Of a stretch of DNA of 64,000 nucleotides, positions 20,239 to 34,008 are shown in pieces. Numbering within the stretch: the stretch's first letter is position 1; the number at the start of each line of letters is the position of its first letter. The stretch lies in the NCBI RefSeq assembly GCF_003410055.1, contig NZ_QUZK01000002.1, forward strand, positions 1-64,000. Direction: 5' to 3'. The position numbers were made by a program, and so were the translations under genes. Source of the DNA: Wenzhouxiangella sediminis. GTDB taxonomy: Bacteria; Pseudomonadota; Gammaproteobacteria; Xanthomonadales; Wenzhouxiangellaceae. Under the pieces are notes generated by a model, which was not told where the DNA came from, made no database searches, and saw only the letters and a list, made by a program, of their open reading frames with translations.

Positions 20239-21525
20239 CTACTGTTCGAAGCGATCCTGGAATATCAGCCCGACCGGGCTGGTGTCGCCTTCGAAGCGGA
20301 AGATGCCGCCGGAGCGCACGACGTAAAGATTACCGGCCTCGTCTTCGCCGAAGCTTCTCAGGTCGGGTGCGCTCACCGGGAATTCGCTCTCGGTCCAGCC
20401 GCCGTTGTCGGGATTGGCGAACCAGATCTGACCGGAGCAGTAATCGCCGTAGATGTAGGTTCCAGTAAGGCTGTCGACCGGCCCGCGGTAGCGATAGCCG
20501 CCGGTGACCGAACACTCGCTGCCGCTGCGCGAGTAGCTCAGCACCGGCAGGGTCGAGCCGGCGAGCGGGCAGGGGTTGCTGGTGCCGCTGGCGAATTCGG
20601 CTTCGCAGACGTCCCATCCGTAGTTCCGACCGCCGGCATCCTCGGCGGGCTCGAAATCGATCTCCTCCCAGTCCCACTGGCCGACGTCGCCGATCCACAG
20701 GTCCCCGGTGTCGCGGTCGAAGCTCCAGCGCCAGGGATTGCGCAGGCCGTAGGCCCAGACCTCACCGCAGGCGTTCGGATCACTGGCGAAGGGGTTGTCC
20801 GCGGGCACGGCGTACTCGGCCGAGCCGTCCAGGTTGGCGGCGCAGAGATTGTTGCTGCCGGCCGGGGTGGTGCTGTCGACGTCGATGCGCAGCATCTTGC
20901 CGAGCAAGGCGGTCGTGACATTGTCCTTGCAGCTGCCGCCGGTCTGGCTGTTGTCGGGATCGAGGGTCTGCGCGCGGTTGCAGGGGTCGTTGCTGCTGCC
21001 GCCGTCGCCCATGCCGATGTAGAGATAGCCGTCCGGGCCGAAAACCAGGTTGCCGCCGTTGTGATTGGAGAAGTCCTGCGTGACGGTCAGCAGGATGCGC
21101 CGGCTGTTGGGGTCGACCTGGTCCGGGTCGCCGGCGCTGACCTGGTATTCGGCGATCACCGTGTCGCCGTTGGGCACGCCGGCAAGTCCGTCGGCGGTGA
21201 AGTTGACGTAGAGCAGGCCGTTGGAATTGAAATTCGGGTGAAAGGCGAGGCCGAGCAGGCCGCGCTCGCCGGAGGCCGAGGTCAGGCCGGTGATGTCGAG
21301 GAAGTTGCCCGACTGGACCTGATCGTTCTCGACGATCTTGACGATGCCGCCCTGCCGGACGACGAACAGCCGGCCGCTGCCGTCGCCGGCATGGACCAGC
21401 CCGAGCGCGCCGCTGAAGGTGCCGGTGGGGAGTACCTCCTCGAGCGTGACGTCGCCCGGAATCTGCGCAAACAATGAGGTGGCGGAAAAGAGGAAGCTCA
21501 GGAGAAGAATGCGAAGCGCTGGCAT
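20239..21525 (-). CDS. Secreted PQQ-dependent aldose sugar dehydrogenase with C-terminal DRFE motif
   Basis: The 428-residue exported protein has a signal peptide (about 1-20, SLFA-Q) and a six-bladed beta-propeller of the soluble glucose/sorbosone dehydrogenase family. Recognisable landmarks are GERGLLGLAFHPNF, DGYLYIGMGDGG, GKMLRID and YGLRNPWRWSFD. Family members oxidise aldoses with PQQ in the periplasm or outside the cell. After the propeller the chain ends IFQDRFEQ, the last eight residues, matching the tails of three other secreted proteins here. Its promoter region lies at 21526-21630, after the terminator of the upstream protease gene. Confidence 0.93.
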   Translation of the reverse strand: MPALRILLLSFLFSATSLFAQIPGDVTLEEVLPTGTFSGALGLVHAGDGSGRLFVVRQGGIVKIVENDQVQSGNFLDITGLTSASGERGLLGLAFHPNFNSNGLLYVNFTADGLAGVPNGDTVIAEYQVSAGDPDQVDPNSRRILLTVTQDFSNHNGGNLVFGPDGYLYIGMGDGGSSNDPCNRAQTLDPDNSQTGGSCKDNVTTALLGKMLRIDVDSTTPAGSNNLCAANLDGSAEYAVPADNPFASDPNACGEVWAYGLRNPWRWSFDRDTGDLWIGDVGQWDWEEIDFEPAEDAGGRNYGWDVCEAEFASGTSNPCPLAGSTLPVLSYSRSGSECSVTGGYRYRGPVDSLTGTYIYGDYCSGQIWFANPDNGGWTESEFPVSAPDLRSFGEDEAGNLYVVRSGGIFRFEGDTSPVGLIFQDRFEQ

Positions 21526-21680: not shown

Positions 21681-24242
21681 TCAGGGCGCCGGCGGCGCCT
21701 CGAAACGGTCGAGGAAAATCTGGGGCGGCTGGCTGCAGGCGTCGACCTGCAGGTCGTCGACGTGCCAGCCGATCTGCCGGATGATGGCGTTGCTGCCGAA
21801 GCGGAATCTCAGTCGCACGCTTTCACCGGCCTGGTCGGAGAGATCGACCGAATAGCGCTCCCAGGTGTCGCGCGGGTCGCCGCACCAGGCCGACGCGCCT
21901 TCGAGCGGATTGCTCGAGCCGGACTCGATCACCCCGTCGTAGGCCCGGACCTGGATATCCGAGTCCGGAACCTGCGCCCAGCTGTTGCCGTCGTCGGTGG
22001 AGATCTCGAGGATGCCGCCGTCGAAGCAGCCGCCGGAGGAAGACTCGATGTCCTGCCAGGTGCGGAAGTTCAGGTAGACGCCGACCGCCGAGGCGGGCAG
22101 GGCGATCTGCGGCGAAACCAGGCGCTGGTCGGACGTGCCGGATACGCTCTCGGCGAAAGCCGAGCGCGACCCTTCCCAGGCACGAGCGTCAGACGCGATC
22201 CAGGTGACGCTGCCGCTCGAGCCCGCCGTGCTCCAGCCGGCGGGAATGCCGGCGTCCTCGAAGCCCTCGGACAGGAGATTCTGGGTCTCGGTGCCGAGCG
22301 GGCAATCGCCCGGGCCGGCCTGGGTGGTGAAGCTCGTCGCATCCGACCAGGCCGCGTCTCCGCACTGGTTGCCGGCGCGAACGCGCACGTAGTGGGTGGT
22401 GTTGGTGTCGAGCGCGGCACTCACCGTGTGCTGGGTCGCGGCTTCGACCGCCGAATAGACGACATCGTTGAAGGCGGCGTCAGTGGCGATTTCGAGCTGG
22501 TACTCCGCGGCCTGCGCCACCGAAGTCCAGCTGATCGTCGGCGTGGCCGGCACGTTGATGGCGCCGTCGGCCGGGCCGGTGATGGTGGCGGCCGCAGGCG
22601 CCGCATCGGTCAAGGTCACCGAGAGGTTGCGCGAGACGTCGATGCCGCCGCCGCTGCCGGCCAGCTCGAACTGGAAGGTGCCGGTGCCGGCGCTGGAGAG
22701 GTTATCCAGCGTCAGGGTGGTGCTTCCCGGCGGGGTTACGGGGTTGACCGAGAAGGACGCGGTTGTGCCGGCCGGCGTTCCGGAGGTGGACAGATTGACC
22801 GGGTCCGAGAAGCCGCCCGAGACGCTGAGACTCACGGGAATATCGAGCGGGTCGAAGCCGCACTGGGCCAGGCTGTCGGAGGCGAGATCGAAATCCCAGG
22901 AGGCGGGGTCGGTACCGTCGATGCCGTCCGGATTGGTTCCACCGGGATCGAGCCAGTCGCGCAGGCGGCTGGCCGCGGCGCTGCCGTCCCAGGCGATCGC
23001 GAACTTGCCGTAGCAGTCGTATTCCTGGTTGCCGCAGGCGGCCAGGCCGCCTGAGAGAAAGCCGACCAGGCGCTTGTTCTGGGGATGCCAGATGCCGGAG
23101 CCGGAAGAGCCCGGCTCGGTCGTGCCGTCGTCCCAGAAGGGGATTTCCCAGTGGGTGTTCGGCGTGCCCGGGCCGCCGATGCAGCTGGCCGTGGTGTCGA
23201 GATTGGATTCGGCGAAGCTGATCGCCTTCTCGTCGGTGCTCGGATGGTGAATGGCGACCGCGCCGCCGGGTTGGGTGTTGGTGCGATCCCAGCCGGCGTA
23301 GTGCACGTTATAGGCCTCGGGCGGCTCCTCCTCCAGTTCCACGAGCGCCATGTCGACGTCCGAACGGGATGCGCGGTAGATGGCGCCTGACTGGCTGTCG
23401 GCCAGCGAACCGCCGCTGAGCGCGCCGCAAGTGGGCGATTCGAAATTCCAGTAGACGACCATCGACTGGTCGTTGCCGGTGCTGATGCCGCAGTGGTTGG
23501 CGGTCAGGAACCAGGGCGTGAGCGAGGTCGGCACGTCGTTGATCAGCGTGCCGGTGCAGGTCCAGATGCCGTTGAGCGTGTAGACGCCGACGCTTCGGAT
23601 CTCGTCGCGCCAGGGATCGCCCTCCGGACAGACGACGTCGTTGTTGCAGCTGCCCTGCCGAACCATGTAGGGGCCGCCCTGGCGACCGAAGAAATCACGG
23701 TAGCCGCCAGAGACCTGGGCCAGGGTGAGCTCGGGTGTGGCGACGCCGGCCGGCACGAAGACTTCGATGACGGCAGAATCGCCCGGAATCACGGGAGTCC
23801 AGAATTCGCCGTGGTCGGCGTTCCGGTCGCTGTCCCAACCGCCCTGGAAGAACGTCCGTGCGGCGTCGTAGATGTGGAGGCGCGCGCCTTCGCTCAGGTG
23901 TAAGTCCGTAAACCCGAAGCTGAGGTCGGTTGCACCCGGCACCTCGATGGCCAGGCGCCAGATCCGGTCGCCGTTCGGCAGCGTGGCCCAGCGGCCGCTG
24001 TCGGCTAGCGTCGCGCGGCTGGAGAAGGGCTCGGCGTACTGGAGCGGCTCGCCCAGCTTGGCCGGGTCGGCGTCCCGCTCGCGCAGCTGGACCGGATCGA
24101 TGGAAGGAAAGACTTCGGCCGGAAGGTCGCCCGACAGGCTGTCGGCATCGGTCTGCCAGCTCATGGGAGGCTGGCGATCGCCGGCCGCGAAGGCGGTGGC
24201 CGAGATAACGCCCAGAATGAGCGCGATGAAGATTCTTTGCAT
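21681..24242 (-). CDS. Secreted lysyl endopeptidase-like serine protease with C-terminal DRFE motif
   Basis: The 853-residue exported protease has a signal peptide (1-19), a propeptide (about 20-200) and a chymotrypsin-fold domain closely resembling Achromobacter protease I: QGSCNNDVVCPEGDPWRDE, catalytic H250 (TANHCG), D297 (DVDMALVEL) and S380 (PGSSGSG). The YDCYGKF segment keeps the Asp thought to select Lys. Downstream lie Ig-like and fibronectin-III-like modules (about 480-640) and a MAM-like domain (about 670-835). It ends IFLDRFEAPPAP. The frame is open 46 codons further upstream, but the ATG at 24242 has a GAGGAG ribosome site and starts the signal peptide. Confidence 0.93.
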   Translation of the reverse strand: MQRIFIALILGVISATAFAAGDRQPPMSWQTDADSLSGDLPAEVFPSIDPVQLRERDADPAKLGEPLQYAEPFSSRATLADSGRWATLPNGDRIWRLAIEVPGATDLSFGFTDLHLSEGARLHIYDAARTFFQGGWDSDRNADHGEFWTPVIPGDSAVIEVFVPAGVATPELTLAQVSGGYRDFFGRQGGPYMVRQGSCNNDVVCPEGDPWRDEIRSVGVYTLNGIWTCTGTLINDVPTSLTPWFLTANHCGISTGNDQSMVVYWNFESPTCGALSGGSLADSQSGAIYRASRSDVDMALVELEEEPPEAYNVHYAGWDRTNTQPGGAVAIHHPSTDEKAISFAESNLDTTASCIGGPGTPNTHWEIPFWDDGTTEPGSSGSGIWHPQNKRLVGFLSGGLAACGNQEYDCYGKFAIAWDGSAAASRLRDWLDPGGTNPDGIDGTDPASWDFDLASDSLAQCGFDPLDIPVSLSVSGGFSDPVNLSTSGTPAGTTASFSVNPVTPPGSTTLTLDNLSSAGTGTFQFELAGSGGGIDVSRNLSVTLTDAAPAAATITGPADGAINVPATPTISWTSVAQAAEYQLEIATDAAFNDVVYSAVEAATQHTVSAALDTNTTHYVRVRAGNQCGDAAWSDATSFTTQAGPGDCPLGTETQNLLSEGFEDAGIPAGWSTAGSSGSVTWIASDARAWEGSRSAFAESVSGTSDQRLVSPQIALPASAVGVYLNFRTWQDIESSSGGCFDGGILEISTDDGNSWAQVPDSDIQVRAYDGVIESGSSNPLEGASAWCGDPRDTWERYSVDLSDQAGESVRLRFRFGSNAIIRQIGWHVDDLQVDACSQPPQIFLDRFEAPPAP

Positions 24243-27356: not shown

Positions 27357-28193
27357 ATGCTCCCAAGCGACCGCAAGTGGTTTACCGAGGTCAACGCCGA
27401 GGCCGGCAGCGCCGAGTCCTGGTCCATCGAGGCGCACCTGGCCCGCGAAGTGACCGACTTCCAGACCATCGACGTCTACCGCACCAGCCACTGGGGCAAC
27501 CTGATGGTCATCGACGGCTTTGTCATGCTGACCACACGGGACAACTTTCTCTACCACGAGATGATGACGCATCCGGCGCTGTTCTCTCACCCCGAGCCCA
27601 AGCGGGTGCTGATTATCGGCGGCGGCGATTGCGGAACGCTCAGGGAGGTGCTTGCGCACGATTCGGTGGCGCGCTGCACCCAGGTGGAAATCGACGAGCA
27701 GGTCACCCGGCTGTCGGAAAAGTATTTTCCCGAGCTGTGCGAGCGTAACGGCGACCCCCGCGCCGAGCTGCTCTTCGATGACGGCCTGGCGCACGTCAAG
27801 AACCTGGAGCCCGGCAGCATGGACGTCATCATCGTCGACTCCACCGACCCGATCGGTCCGGCCGAGGGCCTGTTCGGTCCCGAGTTCGTCGTCGACTGCT
27901 ACCGGGCGCTGGCCGACGGCGGGATGTTCCTGCAGCAAAGCGAGTCGCCGCTGCTGCACGGCAAGCTCATCGCCGGGATTCGCGACAACATGGACAAGGC
28001 AGGGTTTTCGACCATCCGGACGCTCGGGTTTCCGCAGCCCTGCTACCCCTCGGGCTGGTGGTCGGTCACGCAGGCCCGGAAAGGCGGAGAGATCGAACCG
28101 GTCAGCGCCGAGCGCTTCGCCGCCAGCGGCATCACCACGCGTTACTTCAACCCGGGAGTGCACGTGGGGGCGCTGGCGACGCAGTTGCCCTGA
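27357..28193 (+). CDS. speE: Spermidine synthase
   Basis: The 278-residue aminopropyltransferase converts putrescine and decarboxylated SAM to spermidine. It shows the SAM-binding loop IIGGGDCGTLRE, the acidic VEIDEQV motif, LLFDDGLAHV and the catalytic region IIVDSTDPIGPAEGLF, ending with the SGWWS segment typical of SpeE. It is divergent from speA across 77 bases, so both are probably controlled from the same short region. Confidence 0.96.
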   Translation: MLPSDRKWFTEVNAEAGSAESWSIEAHLAREVTDFQTIDVYRTSHWGNLMVIDGFVMLTTRDNFLYHEMMTHPALFSHPEPKRVLIIGGGDCGTLREVLAHDSVARCTQVEIDEQVTRLSEKYFPELCERNGDPRAELLFDDGLAHVKNLEPGSMDVIIVDSTDPIGPAEGLFGPEFVVDCYRALADGGMFLQQSESPLLHGKLIAGIRDNMDKAGFSTIRTLGFPQPCYPSGWWSVTQARKGGEIEPVSAERFAASGITTRYFNPGVHVGALATQLP

Positions 28194-28287
28194 TCCGCGG
28201 GAAGCGCAGATGCAAAAGGTTTGGCAGGATGTATTATGGATTCTCGTTATTGATGACGAGTGAACCGCAACCCCGGGACAACCAGCA

Positions 28288-29742
28288 ATGAAAAAGAACC
28301 TGCTTGCGGGGATGATCCTCGCTCTTTCCGCGTCGCTGCCCACCGCGCTTGTCGCGGCCTCCGTCAGCGTCTCCCAGAAACCCGAACTGACCCCGGACGC
28401 GTTGCTTTGGCAGCTCGACGCCGAGCACGGCGGTGCGAGCTTGCGGGTCGTTCGACCCGATGGTCGTATCGAGGTCCATTCGGTCGGTGTCGACGAAGAC
28501 GAGATTGCCTTCGGTATCGGTGACGAAGCCCTGCCGGATGGGGCCTATCTGTGGGAAATCAGTCTCGCTCCCCGGTTGACCGACGAACAGCGCTCGCAAC
28601 TCGAACGTGCGCGCGAGGAGGATAGAGAGTTGCCGACCATGGCCGATATCCGGGGGGCTCGCGTTCAGGGCAGCTTCCGGGTCGTGGAAGGCTCGGTTTA
28701 CGGTGTCTTGGAAGATGGCGTGGCGCCGGCCGGCGAGATCGAACGAACCAGCGGCACCCCCACTCCGCAGGCTGCGCCGCTGACCGGCGATCTGACGGTT
28801 CGCAACAGCCTGTGCGTCGGTTTCGACTGCGCCGATTCCGAATCCTACGGCGCCGATACCATCAGGCTGCGTGAGGATCGATTGCGGATCGCCTTCCTCG
28901 ACGACAGCACCCTGGCGGGTTTTCCCGCCGGCGACTGGCAGATTCGAATCAACGAGGGTACCGGCGGCGGCGCCAATCTGTTCGCCATCGATTGGCTCGG
29001 GACCGGTTCGAACGGCAACGGCGACGATGCGCCCGCATCCACACCGTTTCGGATCGACGGCAACGCGCCCAGCAACTCCCTGTTCATCGCCAACGACGGC
29101 GATGTCGGTCTCGGTACGCCCACGCCCGCTCTTGAACTGCACGTTCGCGATGGCGATTCGCCCGCCCTCCGCCTGGAGCAGGACACTTCCTCCGGATTCG
29201 CCGCGCAATCCTGGGATATCGCCGGCAACGAGACCAGCTTTTTCGTCCGTGACGTAACCAACGGCAGCACCCTGCCGTTCAGGGTCCGGCCCGGTGCCGA
29301 CAGCAATGCGCTGGTTGTCAGCGATGACAGTTTCGTCGGTATAGGGGTTCTTTCGCCGCAAGCGCGTCTTCACGTCGTCGGCGATGCCCGCATCGACGGT
29401 GCGCTCTACCAGCTCTCCAGTCGAGCGGCCAAGACGGGCTTCGAACGCCCGGATGCATCGACTCTGCTCGATGGGATCGAACAGCTCTGGCTGGGATTCT
29501 GGCAGTACAAGGAAGGTGACCGGGGAGCCAGGCACTTCGGTCCCACCGCCGAGGATTTCCACGCCGCCTTCGGGCTGGGCGGGGACGCACGGCATATCAG
29601 TCCCACTGATATGGCCGGCATTGCACTCGGCGCCACTCAGGCCCTGCGCGAAGAAATCGAGCGACGCGACAACACCATCGCGGACCTGGAGCGGCGTCTG
29701 CAACGCATCGAAGCCGCGCTCGACGTGCAGCCGACTCACTGA
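28288..29742 (+). CDS. Exported protein with S74-like intramolecular chaperone domain
   Basis: The 484-residue product has a signal peptide (about 1-23, ALVAA), a beta-rich N-terminal part (25-150), a middle region with tail-fibre-like repeats (GDVGLGTPTPALELHVRDG near 270, FVGIGVLSPQARLHVVGDA near 350) and a C-terminal segment resembling peptidase S74. In S74 domains a Ser..Lys dyad cleaves the chaperone off; here LSSRAAK (near 376-382) is in the matching place, followed by FGPTAEDF, DMAGIALGATQAL and a coiled coil (EEIERRDNTIADLERRL). S74 domains usually mature phage tailspikes, but no phage gene is near. The next gene starts 9 bases later. Confidence 0.8.
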   Translation: MKKNLLAGMILALSASLPTALVAASVSVSQKPELTPDALLWQLDAEHGGASLRVVRPDGRIEVHSVGVDEDEIAFGIGDEALPDGAYLWEISLAPRLTDEQRSQLERAREEDRELPTMADIRGARVQGSFRVVEGSVYGVLEDGVAPAGEIERTSGTPTPQAAPLTGDLTVRNSLCVGFDCADSESYGADTIRLREDRLRIAFLDDSTLAGFPAGDWQIRINEGTGGGANLFAIDWLGTGSNGNGDDAPASTPFRIDGNAPSNSLFIANDGDVGLGTPTPALELHVRDGDSPALRLEQDTSSGFAAQSWDIAGNETSFFVRDVTNGSTLPFRVRPGADSNALVVSDDSFVGIGVLSPQARLHVVGDARIDGALYQLSSRAAKTGFERPDASTLLDGIEQLWLGFWQYKEGDRGARHFGPTAEDFHAAFGLGGDARHISPTDMAGIALGATQALREEIERRDNTIADLERRLQRIEAALDVQPTH

Positions 29743-29751
29743 GGCAGAATT

Positions 29752-30771
29752 ATGGCAATGCGTCAGGAATTCGCGGGTCGATTCGTGCGGGTGGCTCTGT
29801 GCGGCCTGGCCGCTCTGTTAGCGGCGGCGCCGGCTACCGCCGAACTGGTGGGGCTGGTGCACGACACCGCAGACGGCAGCCTCCAGGCGGTCGCCATCAA
29901 CTCCGACACCGGTGCGGTCACGCCGGCGGGAGCGAGCGCCGCCGACTGTTGTCTGGTGCCGACCGGGCTTTCCGTGACGGATACGGCGGGAGAGCGTTTT
30001 TTTGTCGTGGGTGAGTGGACCGCCGGCGCCACCGCGGGATCCACCAGCCTGCACGAGCTGGGGTTCGACGGTCTTTTGGTCAACTCCGTGGTCCTGGCGG
30101 AGGTGCCGCGATCGGTGCTTGCCTGGGACGACCAGAACGCCCGCCTGATCTCTCTGCGCCACGAACCGGAAACCACGCTGCTGGCCATCGACCCCGTCAG
30201 CGGCGCGGTAAGCACGCTCGGGGGAGCGCAAACCGACTGCTGCGAGGTGATCGCGGGGGTGTCAGCCATCGATTCCGCCGGCCAACGGCTGTTCGTTGCC
30301 GGGCGCTCCTTCGGCGCCACGGACTGGTCGCTGCTCGAGTTCGACCTGGGCAGCGGCGCGGTCAGCGAGGCAGCCGTACTGCCGACCGGCCGTCCGGGGT
30401 TCATGCTCTATGACAGCGCCACGGGGCGGGTCGAGGTCATGATGCAGACTGCGCTTGCCGACTCAGGAAGCCTGGTCGCGATCGATCCGGCCACTGCCAC
30501 CCTCGATACGCTGGCCACCTACAGCAATGGCGATTGCTGCCTTTACGCACCGGGCGACGGGGCGAGTCGCAGTGACGATGGCGAAGTGATCTGGGCCGCG
30601 GGTATCGGCGGTGCGAGCGCTGCGGGCTTTTTCGGCCAGTTCGCGCTGGGCCTCGATCGTCCCGTCGATATCCAGCCCATGGATGCCGGCTATCACATGC
30701 TCGCGCTGGTGGTCGACGGCAGCACGGTCGTTCCCGGCATCCTGTTCCGGGATCGCTTCGAACAGCCTTGA
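29752..30771 (+). CDS. Uncharacterised secreted protein with DCC repeats and C-terminal DRFE motif
   Basis: The 339-residue protein is not assigned to a family. It has a signal peptide (about 1-30, APATA-EL) followed by beta-propeller-like repeats. The vicinal-cysteine motif DCC occurs three times about 100 residues apart (ADCCLVPTG, TDCCEVIAG, GDCCLYAPG), each followed by a blade ending in phrases like RFFVVGEW or RLFVAGRS. It ends LFRDRFEQP, the tag shared with three other exported proteins. A GAGG element 7 bases before the ATG supports the start. It is in an operon with the S74-like gene. Confidence 0.78.
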   Translation: MAMRQEFAGRFVRVALCGLAALLAAAPATAELVGLVHDTADGSLQAVAINSDTGAVTPAGASAADCCLVPTGLSVTDTAGERFFVVGEWTAGATAGSTSLHELGFDGLLVNSVVLAEVPRSVLAWDDQNARLISLRHEPETTLLAIDPVSGAVSTLGGAQTDCCEVIAGVSAIDSAGQRLFVAGRSFGATDWSLLEFDLGSGAVSEAAVLPTGRPGFMLYDSATGRVEVMMQTALADSGSLVAIDPATATLDTLATYSNGDCCLYAPGDGASRSDDGEVIWAAGIGGASAAGFFGQFALGLDRPVDIQPMDAGYHMLALVVDGSTVVPGILFRDRFEQP

Positions 30772-30778
30772 GCGGGGG

Positions 30779-32323
30779 TCAGGAACGGGGCCGCGCCTCG
30801 GGGGCGCCGCACTCCGGCGATCCGGCCAGTTCCAGCGACCATTGCGTGAGCATGGCGCGCAGCGCCTGCGCGGTGTCTCCGCGCGCTATCTGAGAGGAGA
30901 TCCAGGCCAGGGCTTCACGGCAGCGCGCGTGGCGTTTGAGCAGGGTGTTTATATGCAGGGCCGCAAATTGCTCTGCACGGTTTCGCTCGTAGAGACGCTC
31001 GCTCAGCCGCGCGGCCAGCGAAAGGTCATCCGACTCCGGTTCCGCCGCGCGAACAAGGGCGTCGACCCACGCAGCCAGCACGGTGTCGCTGGCATCCGAC
31101 AAGTCCTCGTGCGTGGCAAGCGCATAAGCCTCCTCACGGCGTTCGGCTTCCACCAGGGCCGTCAGTGCCTCGCTCCAGATCTCCAGATCGCGCTCGTTCT
31201 CCAGCGCCTGCAAAAGCTGGTCGGCGGCCGTGTCGGGATCGCCCAGGTCGAAGTGAATGCGGGCGCTTTCGATCAGCCGCCAGCGCACCGATTCGGTCCT
31301 GCCCGGTGCTGAGTCGATCGTGTCCAGAGCTTCCTGTGGCTGCCCGTTGCGGCGCAGCACGGCGACCAGGTTCTCCCGCGCCCGTTCGGCGCCCGGCTCG
31401 AGCTCGAGCGCCCGCGCCAGGCTCTTTCGTGCCGACTGCAGCTGCCCCAGTTCGGCCTGGGCGGTGCCCAGGTTGGTCCAGGCGACGGCGCTTGCAGGGT
31501 CGGCTTCGACGGCGCGCGTGAATGCGTCGGCCGCGCCCGCGACGTCCCCGGCCGACCAGGCCTTGCGGCCGCGGAGGATATGGATCCGCGAGCCGGCCGC
31601 GTGGGCGGCCAGGTATTCGGCTACGGGATCGTCGGGCGTGATGCCGATCTGGCCGGCCTTGGAGAGGTGCTCCTGCATGCCATCCGGGTCGCCGAGTCCC
31701 CGCAGGGCCATGGCCAGCGGGTAGTGCAGCCGATCGGCCCGGGGTTCGGCTTCCAGGGCGCTTTCGAGAAACTCTCTGGCTTGCTCGTATTGTTCCAGCG
31801 CAAGACGGGCCTCGCCCATGCCGGCCAGCGCCGCCGGCGCGCCATCGTCAATCTCCAGGGCACGCTGAAATGCCCGAACTCCCGGTTCGGCGCGACCGGC
31901 GTCCAGGTAAAGTCGTCCGATCCGCGTCCAGCCGGGCCCGGCGAGTGCGGGGTTGAGGGCGATGGATTCGAGAAACTGCCGGCGCGCATCGTCGGTTTCG
32001 CCGCGCTGGCCGAGAATGATGCCTTTCAGATAGGGCCAGCGACCGTCGAAGGGATCCGTTTCGGCTGCTCGTTGGTAGGCCGCCAGGCTCACGTTTTCGA
32101 ATCCCGTGGCCTGATAGAGCATGCCCAGTTCGCCCCAGGCCTCGGCCAGGGTGGCGGCGCCGGCGTCCCTCGATTGTTCGACCAGAGCGCGCGCCGACTC
32201 GATCTGCGCTGCGAGCGCCGGATCCATGCCGGCAGTGTCGGGGTGTTCGATCTGCGCGGCCTGCGCGGTCGGCGCTATCGAATGGACCAGGATGGCCGCG
32301 ATCAGGAGTCGGCGCCGGATCAC
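30779..32323 (-). CDS. Exported tetratricopeptide-repeat protein
   Basis: The 514-residue product starts with a signal peptide (IRRRLLIAAILVHS to about residue 22). It is then almost wholly helical, with about ten TPR units, for example LAEAWGELGMLYQATGFENVSLAAYQRAAETDP and SAVAWTNLGTAQAELGQL. The GTG at 32323 is preferred because it overlaps the stop of the CRTAC1-type gene (GTGA) and begins the signal peptide, whereas a longer open frame reads through the end of that gene. TPR proteins mediate protein contacts; it probably partners the co-transcribed CRTAC1-like protein. Confidence 0.85.
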   Translation of the reverse strand: MIRRRLLIAAILVHSIAPTAQAAQIEHPDTAGMDPALAAQIESARALVEQSRDAGAATLAEAWGELGMLYQATGFENVSLAAYQRAAETDPFDGRWPYLKGIILGQRGETDDARRQFLESIALNPALAGPGWTRIGRLYLDAGRAEPGVRAFQRALEIDDGAPAALAGMGEARLALEQYEQAREFLESALEAEPRADRLHYPLAMALRGLGDPDGMQEHLSKAGQIGITPDDPVAEYLAAHAAGSRIHILRGRKAWSAGDVAGAADAFTRAVEADPASAVAWTNLGTAQAELGQLQSARKSLARALELEPGAERARENLVAVLRRNGQPQEALDTIDSAPGRTESVRWRLIESARIHFDLGDPDTAADQLLQALENERDLEIWSEALTALVEAERREEAYALATHEDLSDASDTVLAAWVDALVRAAEPESDDLSLAARLSERLYERNRAEQFAALHINTLLKRHARCREALAWISSQIARGDTAQALRAMLTQWSLELAGSPECGAPEARPRS

Positions 32324-34008
32324 GGCGCAGGCCTTTGGCCCTCGCCCTGGACCAGCGTGTGGTAGCTGCCGGCCGACAGGGCCTCGAATCGTTCCCGTGT
32401 TCCGTCGGCCCATGTGACGTCCACCGAAGCGGCTTCGTCTTCACCCTGCAGTGCGAACAGCAGGCGAGCATCGCGGGCCGAGAGGTAGCTGCCATCCGTT
32501 GCCGCTCGCTGTCGCTGGCCTTGCCCTTGTGTGAGCCGGCCCTCGGCGCCGAGGGCATCGCGCGACGGCTCGCCGGTCACCAGACGTACCCCTAGCCATT
32601 TGCCGGTGGTCGGCGCCCGGTTGTGCAGCAGCCGGGGGCGGTCGTGATTGTTGCAAATCAGGACGTCCAGGCGACCGTCGTTGTCGATGTCGCCGGTGGC
32701 CAGTCCGCGTCCGACGGCCGGCGCCAGCGCGGGATCGCCTTCCATGACCTGCTCGAAGCGCCGCGATCCGGTGTTGCGAAGCATCAGGTCACGCTGGGAC
32801 AGCGGGAATCGGCTATCGGCCTGGCGCTGTGCCTCTATGACGCGTACGGCGCCGTTGGCGATCATCAGGTCGGGCAGCGCGTCGCGGTCGAAGTCGGCGA
32901 GCGCAACGCCGAAACCGGTGAACGGCAACGTGGTCGCGTGCAGGCCCCAGGCCGCGGTGTCGTCGAAGAAATCGCCCTGTCCCCGGTTGCGATAGAGCGT
33001 GTTGCTCTCGCCGGTCAGGTGCGTGAGCAGCAGATCCCAGTCGCCGTCGCCGTCGACGTCGGCGACGGCGATGCCCATTCCGGCTTCCATCTGGCCATGC
33101 CGGTTGACCGCCGTGCCGGTCAACAGGGCCTGTTCGGAAAAACGGTCGGCTTCGTTGCGCCAGAACTGGTTCATGTCGCCGTCGTTGGCCACGAACACAT
33201 CGCGCCGGCCGTCACCGTCCAGGTCGACCACGGCCACACCCAGGCCGCGCAGAGGCGGGTGGTCGCCGAGCCAGTCCATTGTGGCGTCGTCAAAGCGCCC
33301 GTTGCCCTGGTTGAGGTAGAGCACATCGCGAGCGGCTTCGAACACGCCCGGACCGCAGTAGTCGCGCCGGGTGGACTCGGCCAGGCAGGTGGGGTTGGAT
33401 TCCGGGTCGTAGTCCACGTAATTGGTGACGAACAGGTCGAGCCGTCCGTCCGAATCGATGTCGGCGACCGATGCGCTGGCGCCGAAGCCCGCGTGGGCCG
33501 TGCCGGAGGACTCGCTGATGTCGGTGAAGCTGCCGTCGCCGTTGTTGCGCCAGAGGCTGTTGGGCCCGTAGTTGGTGATGTAGAGGTCGGGGTGGCCGTT
33601 TCCGGTCAGGTCGCCGGCGGCCACGCCCATCCCGTAGCCTCGGGCGTCGAGGCCCGATTCGGCGGTGACGTCCACGAAGCGGATCCGGTCGCTTGAGGAT
33701 GCATTGCGGTAAAGCCGGGTGGCTTCTCGAACTGGCGGCTCGGCATCGTGGCGCTTGTTCGGAACCGCGCCGCTTTGTACGAGCACGATATCGAGTCGGC
33801 CGTCGCCGTCGTAATCCACCAGGCCGCAGCCGCCGCCGACGATCTCGGGGTAGTGCCAATCGCCGCTGAGCCCGTTGTCGTGGCGAAAAACGAGGCCGCT
33901 GTCGGCGGTGATGTCTTCAAACTGAACGGCCCCGGGCAGTGCCGAGGCCGAAATCGTCAGGCAGTAGACCAGGAGCGCCGTTTTCGACGCCCCGCGTAAG
34001 GTGCCCAT
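32320..34008 (-). CDS. Secreted CRTAC1-type FG-GAP/VCBS beta-propeller with ASPIC/UnbV domain
   Basis: The 562-residue exported protein has a signal peptide (about 1-27) and an integrin-like propeller built of calcium-binding loops such as DYDGDGRLD, DIDSDGRLD, DLDGDGRRD, DVDGDGDWD and DIDNDGRLD, followed by a C-terminal ASPIC/UnbV domain (about 470-555). Family members are extracellular; their function is largely unknown, with adhesion or sugar binding proposed. Its stop overlaps the GTG of the TPR gene, so the pair is translationally coupled. Confidence 0.9.
   Translation of the reverse strand: MGTLRGASKTALLVYCLTISASALPGAVQFEDITADSGLVFRHDNGLSGDWHYPEIVGGGCGLVDYDGDGRLDIVLVQSGAVPNKRHDAEPPVREATRLYRNASSSDRIRFVDVTAESGLDARGYGMGVAAGDLTGNGHPDLYITNYGPNSLWRNNGDGSFTDISESSGTAHAGFGASASVADIDSDGRLDLFVTNYVDYDPESNPTCLAESTRRDYCGPGVFEAARDVLYLNQGNGRFDDATMDWLGDHPPLRGLGVAVVDLDGDGRRDVFVANDGDMNQFWRNEADRFSEQALLTGTAVNRHGQMEAGMGIAVADVDGDGDWDLLLTHLTGESNTLYRNRGQGDFFDDTAAWGLHATTLPFTGFGVALADFDRDALPDLMIANGAVRVIEAQRQADSRFPLSQRDLMLRNTGSRRFEQVMEGDPALAPAVGRGLATGDIDNDGRLDVLICNNHDRPRLLHNRAPTTGKWLGVRLVTGEPSRDALGAEGRLTQGQGQRQRAATDGSYLSARDARLLFALQGEDEAASVDVTWADGTRERFEALSAGSYHTLVQGEGQRPAP

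Follow-up and report, generated by a model that had tools for sequence, protein, structure and literature searches.

A candidate two-gene operon for a surface fibre in Wenzhouxiangella sediminis, pairing an exported S74 protein with a tagged propeller protein

In a stretch of 64,000 nucleotides (the window) from contig NZ_QUZK01000002.1 of Wenzhouxiangella sediminis, a gene for a secreted protein with a phage-type S74 chaperone domain is followed at once by a gene for a protein with a C-terminal tag. The question raised by this locus is what an S74 domain is doing in an exported bacterial protein, and whether the second protein is its partner. The first-pass annotation, made from the sequence, had suggested a trimeric surface fibre with an exported partner; this reading is plausible but unproven. 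The features of the two genes, here called A and B, are as follows.

28288..29742, + strand: gene A, exported S74 fibre protein, 484 aa (open reading frame, Pfam, structure model)
28288..28359, + strand: Sec-type signal peptide of A, about residues 1-24, without lipobox (inspection)
28378..28713, + strand: N-terminal Ig/FNIII-like sandwich of A, residues 31-142 (model, VIA)
28780..29397, + strand: beta-rich stem of A, residues 165-370 (conservation and Bd2133 alignment; model weak)
29416..29739, + strand: S74/ICA chaperone-protease domain and C-terminal coiled coil of A, residues 377-484 (Pfam, MyRF ICA fold)
29416..29418, + strand: codon of Ser377, proposed nucleophile, with the proposed cut at Leu376/Ser377 (dyad spacing, conservation)
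29431..29433, + strand: codon of Lys382, proposed dyad base (dyad spacing, conservation)
29752..30771, + strand: gene B, exported propeller protein with C-terminal tag, 339 aa (open reading frame, structure model)
29842..30717, + strand: six-bladed beta-propeller of B, residues 31-322 (model, Foldseek, VIA, repeat alignment)
30745..30762, + strand: C-terminal tag FRDRFE of B, residues 332-337 (tag scan)

Both open reading frames lie where they had been annotated, and B starts 9 bases past the stop of A. The stretch GAGG, a possible ribosome-binding site for B, overlaps the stop codon of A, and the product of B terminates in ILFRDRFEQP. The pair is flanked by speE (27357-28193) and a convergent TPR gene (30779-32413); further neighbours are speA and genes for an NAD-binding dehydrogenase, an FG-GAP/ASPIC protein, a DUF3617 protein and an M56/TonB_C protein. 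The promoter scan of 28100-30900 found no sigma-70-like sites. Gene B contains three terminator-like sites (1.6 expected), of which two overlap, so the operon status of A-B is drawn solely from gene spacing and conservation. PHROGs matches were found in five of the ten neighbours scanned. Among these matches, a trypsin-like protein hits a minor tail protein through its fn3-like part, and a TonB_C part hits a spanin; they are read as domains also present in cellular proteins. The scanned neighbours contain no phage operon, which agrees with the earlier statement that no phage genes surround A.

The C-terminal part of A had been described as S74-like, with Ser and Lys of LSSRAAK in the dyad positions. 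Pfam recognises PF13884 (Peptidase_S74) at residues 377-428 (E 2.8e-5; 24.8 bits, curated cut-off 22), and in the scan of the own genome the domain scores 28.9 bits. Absence of an S74 fold had been named beforehand as a reason to give up the claim. The best PDB fold match of the A model, which was made from an alignment of 36 rows picked as S74-bearing, is the self-cleaving ICA domain of MyRF (7dc3; E 1.2e-4, prob 1.00, TMt 0.58, rmsd 5.8, 142 columns), followed by T4 gp34 and Bd2133, both with low TM-scores. The 50 VIA matches listed for A include no S74 chain; this is not evidence against the domain, since that list is filled by the N-terminal domain of A. A profile of 36 A relatives finds only four PDB sequences at E <=0.01, namely Bd2133, MyRF, 8ojn and 8oml. 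The last two carry the chain name 'cell wall surface anchor family protein' and, judged from that name, were taken for MAT fibres (see below).

Ser377 and Lys382 are 5 residues apart, as are the dyad residues of MyRF and the phage endosialidase endoNF. MyRF S587 and K592 correspond to S911 and K916 of endoNF, and alanine at either MyRF position abolishes the cut (PMC8326128), while Bd3182 of Bdellovibrio is cut at the catalytic Ser782 and the S782A change blocks cutting (PMC10769870). Poor conservation of Ser and Lys in relatives was the other refuting outcome named in advance. Both residues are in place in 53 of 54 relatives, which were chosen from 81 with a profile that covers only the sequence following the dyad; this tail profile was built from rows picked as S74-bearing. 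In the 54th (L177) the position was extrapolated and could not be placed, and this row was not counted as conserved and was left out of the tree described below. The 27 rows without an S74 tail by this profile were not part of the count. An S74-like dyad is still visible in six of them (L143, L147, L164, L174, L193 and L198), and others are truncated at the edge of a contig or have no S74 domain. A separate Pfam run recognises S74 in 57 of the 81 rows, and all five genus orthologues have LSSRA(A/L)K. A chance resemblance to S74 was ruled out by the Pfam score, the MyRF fold match and the dyad conservation, the last because Ser and Lys are kept in relatives that were selected without reference to them.

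The signal peptide of A reported earlier is apparently of Sec type, judged by inspection, as was that of B. Residues 31-142 are modelled at pLDDT ~90, with 3d33 as the best VIA match (Z 8.5, rmsd 2.4, 80 aligned), and FlgD_ig was found in 4 of 81 A relatives. Most of the invariant columns of the family fall in residues 165-370, where the structure model is poor. This stem contains two stretches of the form V-G-x-G-x-x-x-P-x-x-x-L (residues 273-284 and 350-361). The tail-fibre-like repeats of the first-pass annotation have a counterpart in PHROGs tail-fibre and virion families, which match residues 257-367 and also the S74/coiled-coil part (377-475), and its coiled coil behind S74 fits a modelled helix at residues 439-480.

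Among the closest published parallels are the mosaic adhesive trimeric (MAT) fibres of Bdellovibrio, the best-studied bacterial case that was found, for which S74 self-cleavage has been reported (PMC10769870). Those of the S74 subgroup (e.g. Bd3182) are exported bacterial fibres, as A appears to be, and like A have a terminal S74 domain and a Ser-Lys dyad. The stem of A matches Bd2133 in the profile search (E 9.7e-10), and both of its capping-loop-like stretches align with like stretches of Bd2133, although the MAT consensus has 11 positions (PMC10769870) and the stretches in A have 12. A conserved beta-rich domain of ~130 aa directly follows the signal peptide of MAT fibres and, according to the available part of PMC10769870, has no PDB homologue. 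A has a beta sandwich of similar size and place, compared here by description, but in the model it looks Ig/FNIII-like. A is also about half the typical MAT length (~1,000 aa; PMC10769870), and it has a fixed partner gene, whereas the available part of PMC10769870 names no MAT partner and states that the surface element holding the fibre awaits identification.

Two other groups of S74 proteins were compared with A. Those of phages (endosialidase NF/K1F, the T5 L-shaped tail fibre and the GA-1 neck appendage), as far as their descriptions were available, share the S74 domain behind a beta-rich stem and the Ser-Lys spacing of 5. However, A has a signal peptide, no nearby phage genes and no close viral homologue. 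The MyRF/MrfA transcription factors share the ICA fold and the dyad and supply the best fold match, but are described as eukaryotic, membrane-tethered and DNA-binding (PMC8326128), and A lacks such domains. One A relative from a Chloroflexi MAG (L127, 4854-6338) has S74 followed by a C-terminal hydrophobic stretch and a basic end, a layout that recalls MyRF, where self-cleavage frees the N-terminal trimer from the membrane.

An S74 domain in an exported bacterial protein had been presented as an anomaly, a view that was not borne out. In bacterial genome contigs 280 A relatives from many phyla were confirmed. The best 80 of the 280 were kept and come from Lysobacterales, Acidobacteriota, Thermodesulfobacteriota, Chloroflexota, Rhodobacterales, Bacteroidota and others. 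Among plasmid records, 21 of 72,556 match A, and several of the matches are labelled 'tail fiber domain-containing protein'. Together with the published MAT fibres, the relatives and the plasmid labels mean that an exported S74 protein is no rarity. On viral contigs, 25 stretches fit a search pattern and none was confirmed as a relative; matches in phage records (11 of 50,697) are partial, and none covers 80 % of A.

Further S74 genes were seen in other arrangements. The own genome encodes three S74 proteins besides A (L077, L078 and L079). Their N-terminal parts are alike, starting YQGQLQ, are unrelated to the N-domain of A by BLAST, and the proteins resemble A over at most 37 residues. At L079 (3631-7217 of G000:C40, outside the window), a tagged 609-aa protein is encoded upstream of the S74 gene, and the two products have 11 of 17 residues in common in the signal peptide region. 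In another genome (L090, 208-2015 of G003:C33), a gene for a tagged 103-aa protein begins within an S74 gene, and B is absent. Four adjoining genes that match A form a tandem array of S74-type proteins at L086 (7665-15751 of G021:C90), and 13 places on the 76-kb plasmid of Roseovarius faecimaris (NZ_CP034347.1) match A. An exported-looking ORF of ~110 aa follows the fibre gene in all four loci of one set, mostly from Desulfobulbales (L153, L162, L186 and L190). In two Betaproteobacteria MAGs (L192 and L195), an ORF of ~240 aa lies 8-21 bases past the fibre gene; its product has a signal peptide and a hydrophobic, Arg-rich C-terminus but is not B-like in sequence, and is perhaps another partner.

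B could not be assigned to a family in Pfam, PHROGs or NCBIfam. Its model (pLDDT 79.1, pTM 0.79, ~24 strands) is a six-bladed propeller. Foldseek matches TolB (1crz, E 3.5e-9), and VIA matches nidogen (1npe; Z 20.1, rmsd 3.3, 255 aligned) with the YWTD propellers of LRP/LDLR tied; 923 of 984 chains reach Z >=8. In the model, the overall fold is thus like that of YWTD/NHL-type propellers (nidogen, LDLR/LRP), TolB and kelch proteins, but searches of Pfam, NCBIfam and PDB sequences gave no match of weight to YWTD or any other named propeller family, and B differs in having one Cys-Cys per two-blade unit and a C-terminal tag. The protein is built from three repeats, each ~98 residues long and containing a single Cys-Cys (at 66, 163 and 262). 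Pairwise alignments of the repeats score above the mean of shuffles (z 14.7, 4.8 and 3.6), and for the pair with z 3.6 the top score of 1000 shuffles beats the real score. Of the 18 B-type rows listed, two being counted twice under other names, 14 have three or more Cys-Cys. Three rows have two, which either sit in adjacent or outer repeats, one Cys-Cys being missing, or lie 195 apart; further rows are truncated. Cys-Cys are mostly spaced 94-102 apart. From the model and the repeats, B appears to have pseudo-threefold symmetry, as an S74 trimer would, and we infer that this is probably more than coincidence.

The pair is conserved in related genomes, as the annotation had asked to be checked. 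Within the genus, A matches were found in 20 of 30 genomes, with full-length orthologues in the own genome and in G002, G007, G008 and G026. B is found in these five only and adjoins A in all of them. The speE/TPR surroundings are kept in G002, the neighbours differ in G007 and G026, and speE is not beside A in G008. In G007 an in-frame stop lies inside the S74 domain of A and in G026 A is split; these interruptions may be assembly errors. The survey of the order started from B-type matches, found in 27 of 398 genomes. A is directly upstream in 19 of the 27, including all 16 genomes with a B match at E <=1e-12, which have A, and in 8 of the 27 A is absent from the 6-17 kb examined around the match. 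B-type repeats were further found in long proteins whose surroundings have no A. Starting from A instead, a B-type gene directly follows in 13 of the 80 named A loci and not in the other 67; gene starts in the loci of relatives are those of a codon-usage caller, which misses the real gene at 30779-32413 because of overlap. All 22 pairs inspected are on the same strand with A first. On a tree of 53 A proteins, the 'with B' label requires 3 changes (shuffled mean 12.4; none of 500 shuffles as low), and the 'with B' state may have a single origin. In the class, weak B-type matches were found in 6 of 369 genomes besides the own, with no A within ~1.5 kb on either side. Strict mutual dependence of A and B was rejected, since A is also found without B, and B-type repeats without A.

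The tag of B is a recurrent feature of this genome. F-x-D-R-F-E occurs at 46 sites (2 for the reversed pattern), and 23 of 30 sites examined are at most 11 residues from a stop. The window contains three: 30745-30762 (+ strand), 21699-21716 (- strand) and 20245-20262 (- strand). Across 151 genomes of the order, F-x-D-[RG]-F-E strongly exceeds the control in several families (e.g. f1, f4 and f5) and lies close to it in the majority of f2 and f12 genomes. Short B proteins (own, L125, L126, L130 and L134) finish in F-x-D-[RG]-F-[ED], and the long B-type protein L140 finishes in FFDSFE. In the model, the last 13 residues of B, including FRDRFE, are disordered (pLDDT <50). Other B relatives (L131, L132, L137 and L149) have a terminal hydrophobic stretch with Arg, preceded by Big_3_5 Ig repeats in the three that were scanned (L131, L132 and L137), and L123 and L124 have the tag and a hydrophobic Arg tail together. 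CTERM sorting signals sit at the C-terminus of exported proteins, and we take the hydrophobic Arg-rich tails to resemble the IPTL-, PEP- and GlyGly-CTERM signals. Such signals combine a motif, a hydrophobic segment and a basic end, whereas F-x-D-[RG]-F-[ED] has the motif only, and the NCBIfam CTERM models gave no match at a meaningful level to the nine proteins scanned. As tag and tail occupy the same place in B, this suggests that they do a related job, namely delivery to or retention at the surface.

We give about an even chance to the reading that A and B form a two-gene operon for a surface fibre, in which a self-cut A trimer is held by B. It is favoured by the order of the genes (19 of 27 and 22 of 22, above) and the keeping of the pair amid changing surroundings, by the Pfam, fold, PDB profile and dyad evidence for S74, and by the propeller fold of B, a threefold repeat that suits a trimer and the exchange of tag and tail at its end. 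The weak stem model, the 8 B-type loci without A nearby, the 67 A loci without B and the interrupted copies of A in G007 and G026 were counted against it. In addition, A would need a route across the outer membrane, and likeness of fold is no proof of function. From the evidence in its favour we infer export, trimerisation, cleavage, A-B binding, anchoring and an adhesive role. Sec would export A, and three A chains would join at their C-terminal ends via S74 and the coiled coil. After folding of the stem, the Ser377-Lys382 dyad would cut before Ser377 and set the chaperone free. What remains would be a short and stable trimer, its base Ig/FNIII-like and its stem beta-rich. B, an exported propeller of three equal two-blade units, would bind this trimer, perhaps on the threefold axis, and its C-terminal tag, or in some relatives the hydrophobic Arg-rich tail behind Ig repeats, would deliver or hold the fibre at the surface. 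The role would most likely be adhesion, with the stem binding the target, as has been proposed for MAT fibres (PMC10769870). More tentative is the specific proposal that a pseudo-threefold propeller with one Cys-Cys in each of three repeats caps or anchors the self-cleaved trimer on its threefold axis, and that F-x-D-[RG]-F-[ED] is an unnamed Lysobacterales sorting signal that replaces hydrophobic Arg-rich anchor tails at the same place.

Alternatively, A could be a self-cleaving trimeric fibre and B an exported propeller that works on its own, as a ligand binder, lectin or enzyme, and is merely co-expressed, for example in one attachment programme. Propellers often bind ligands on their own, some long proteins carry B-type repeats with no A close by, and many A families have no B. 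However, B adjoins A in 19 of 27 order genomes, the A-B order is constant wherever inspected although the surroundings vary, and the repeat of B is threefold, leaving this explanation possible but doubtful. It is unlikely that the S74 domain is a folding chaperone that has lost cutting, the mature fibre retaining its C-terminal domain. The residue after Ser377 is Ser, where the motif given for MAT-fibre S74 (SDxxxK; PMC10769870) has Asp, but the wider family often has SS here, and a pure chaperone should not need Ser and Lys to be kept in 53 of 54 relatives. A very improbable and disfavoured reading is that A is a recent relic of a phage tail gene without a cellular role of its own. The PHROGs tail-fibre matches, the partial matches in phage records and the interrupted copies in two relatives would fit this, but the 280 relatives are bacterial, no relative on a viral contig was confirmed and no phage record covers 80 % of A. 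A phage origin was rejected on these grounds, for want of phage genes around A, and because B has no phage match.

Exported bacterial S74 fibres were already known. What is new is the fixed, tagged, pseudo-threefold propeller partner; in the literature searched, largely titles and the openings of abstracts, neither an S74 gene paired with a propeller gene nor this tag was found. Bacterial S74 proteins are usually named after phage tails, yet the A family is exported, bacterial and widespread. B, fixed directly behind the fibre gene and with exchangeable tag- or anchor-like ends, is a concrete candidate for the element that holds such a fibre, and the A-B pair offers a route to the role of the F-x-D-R-F-E tag.
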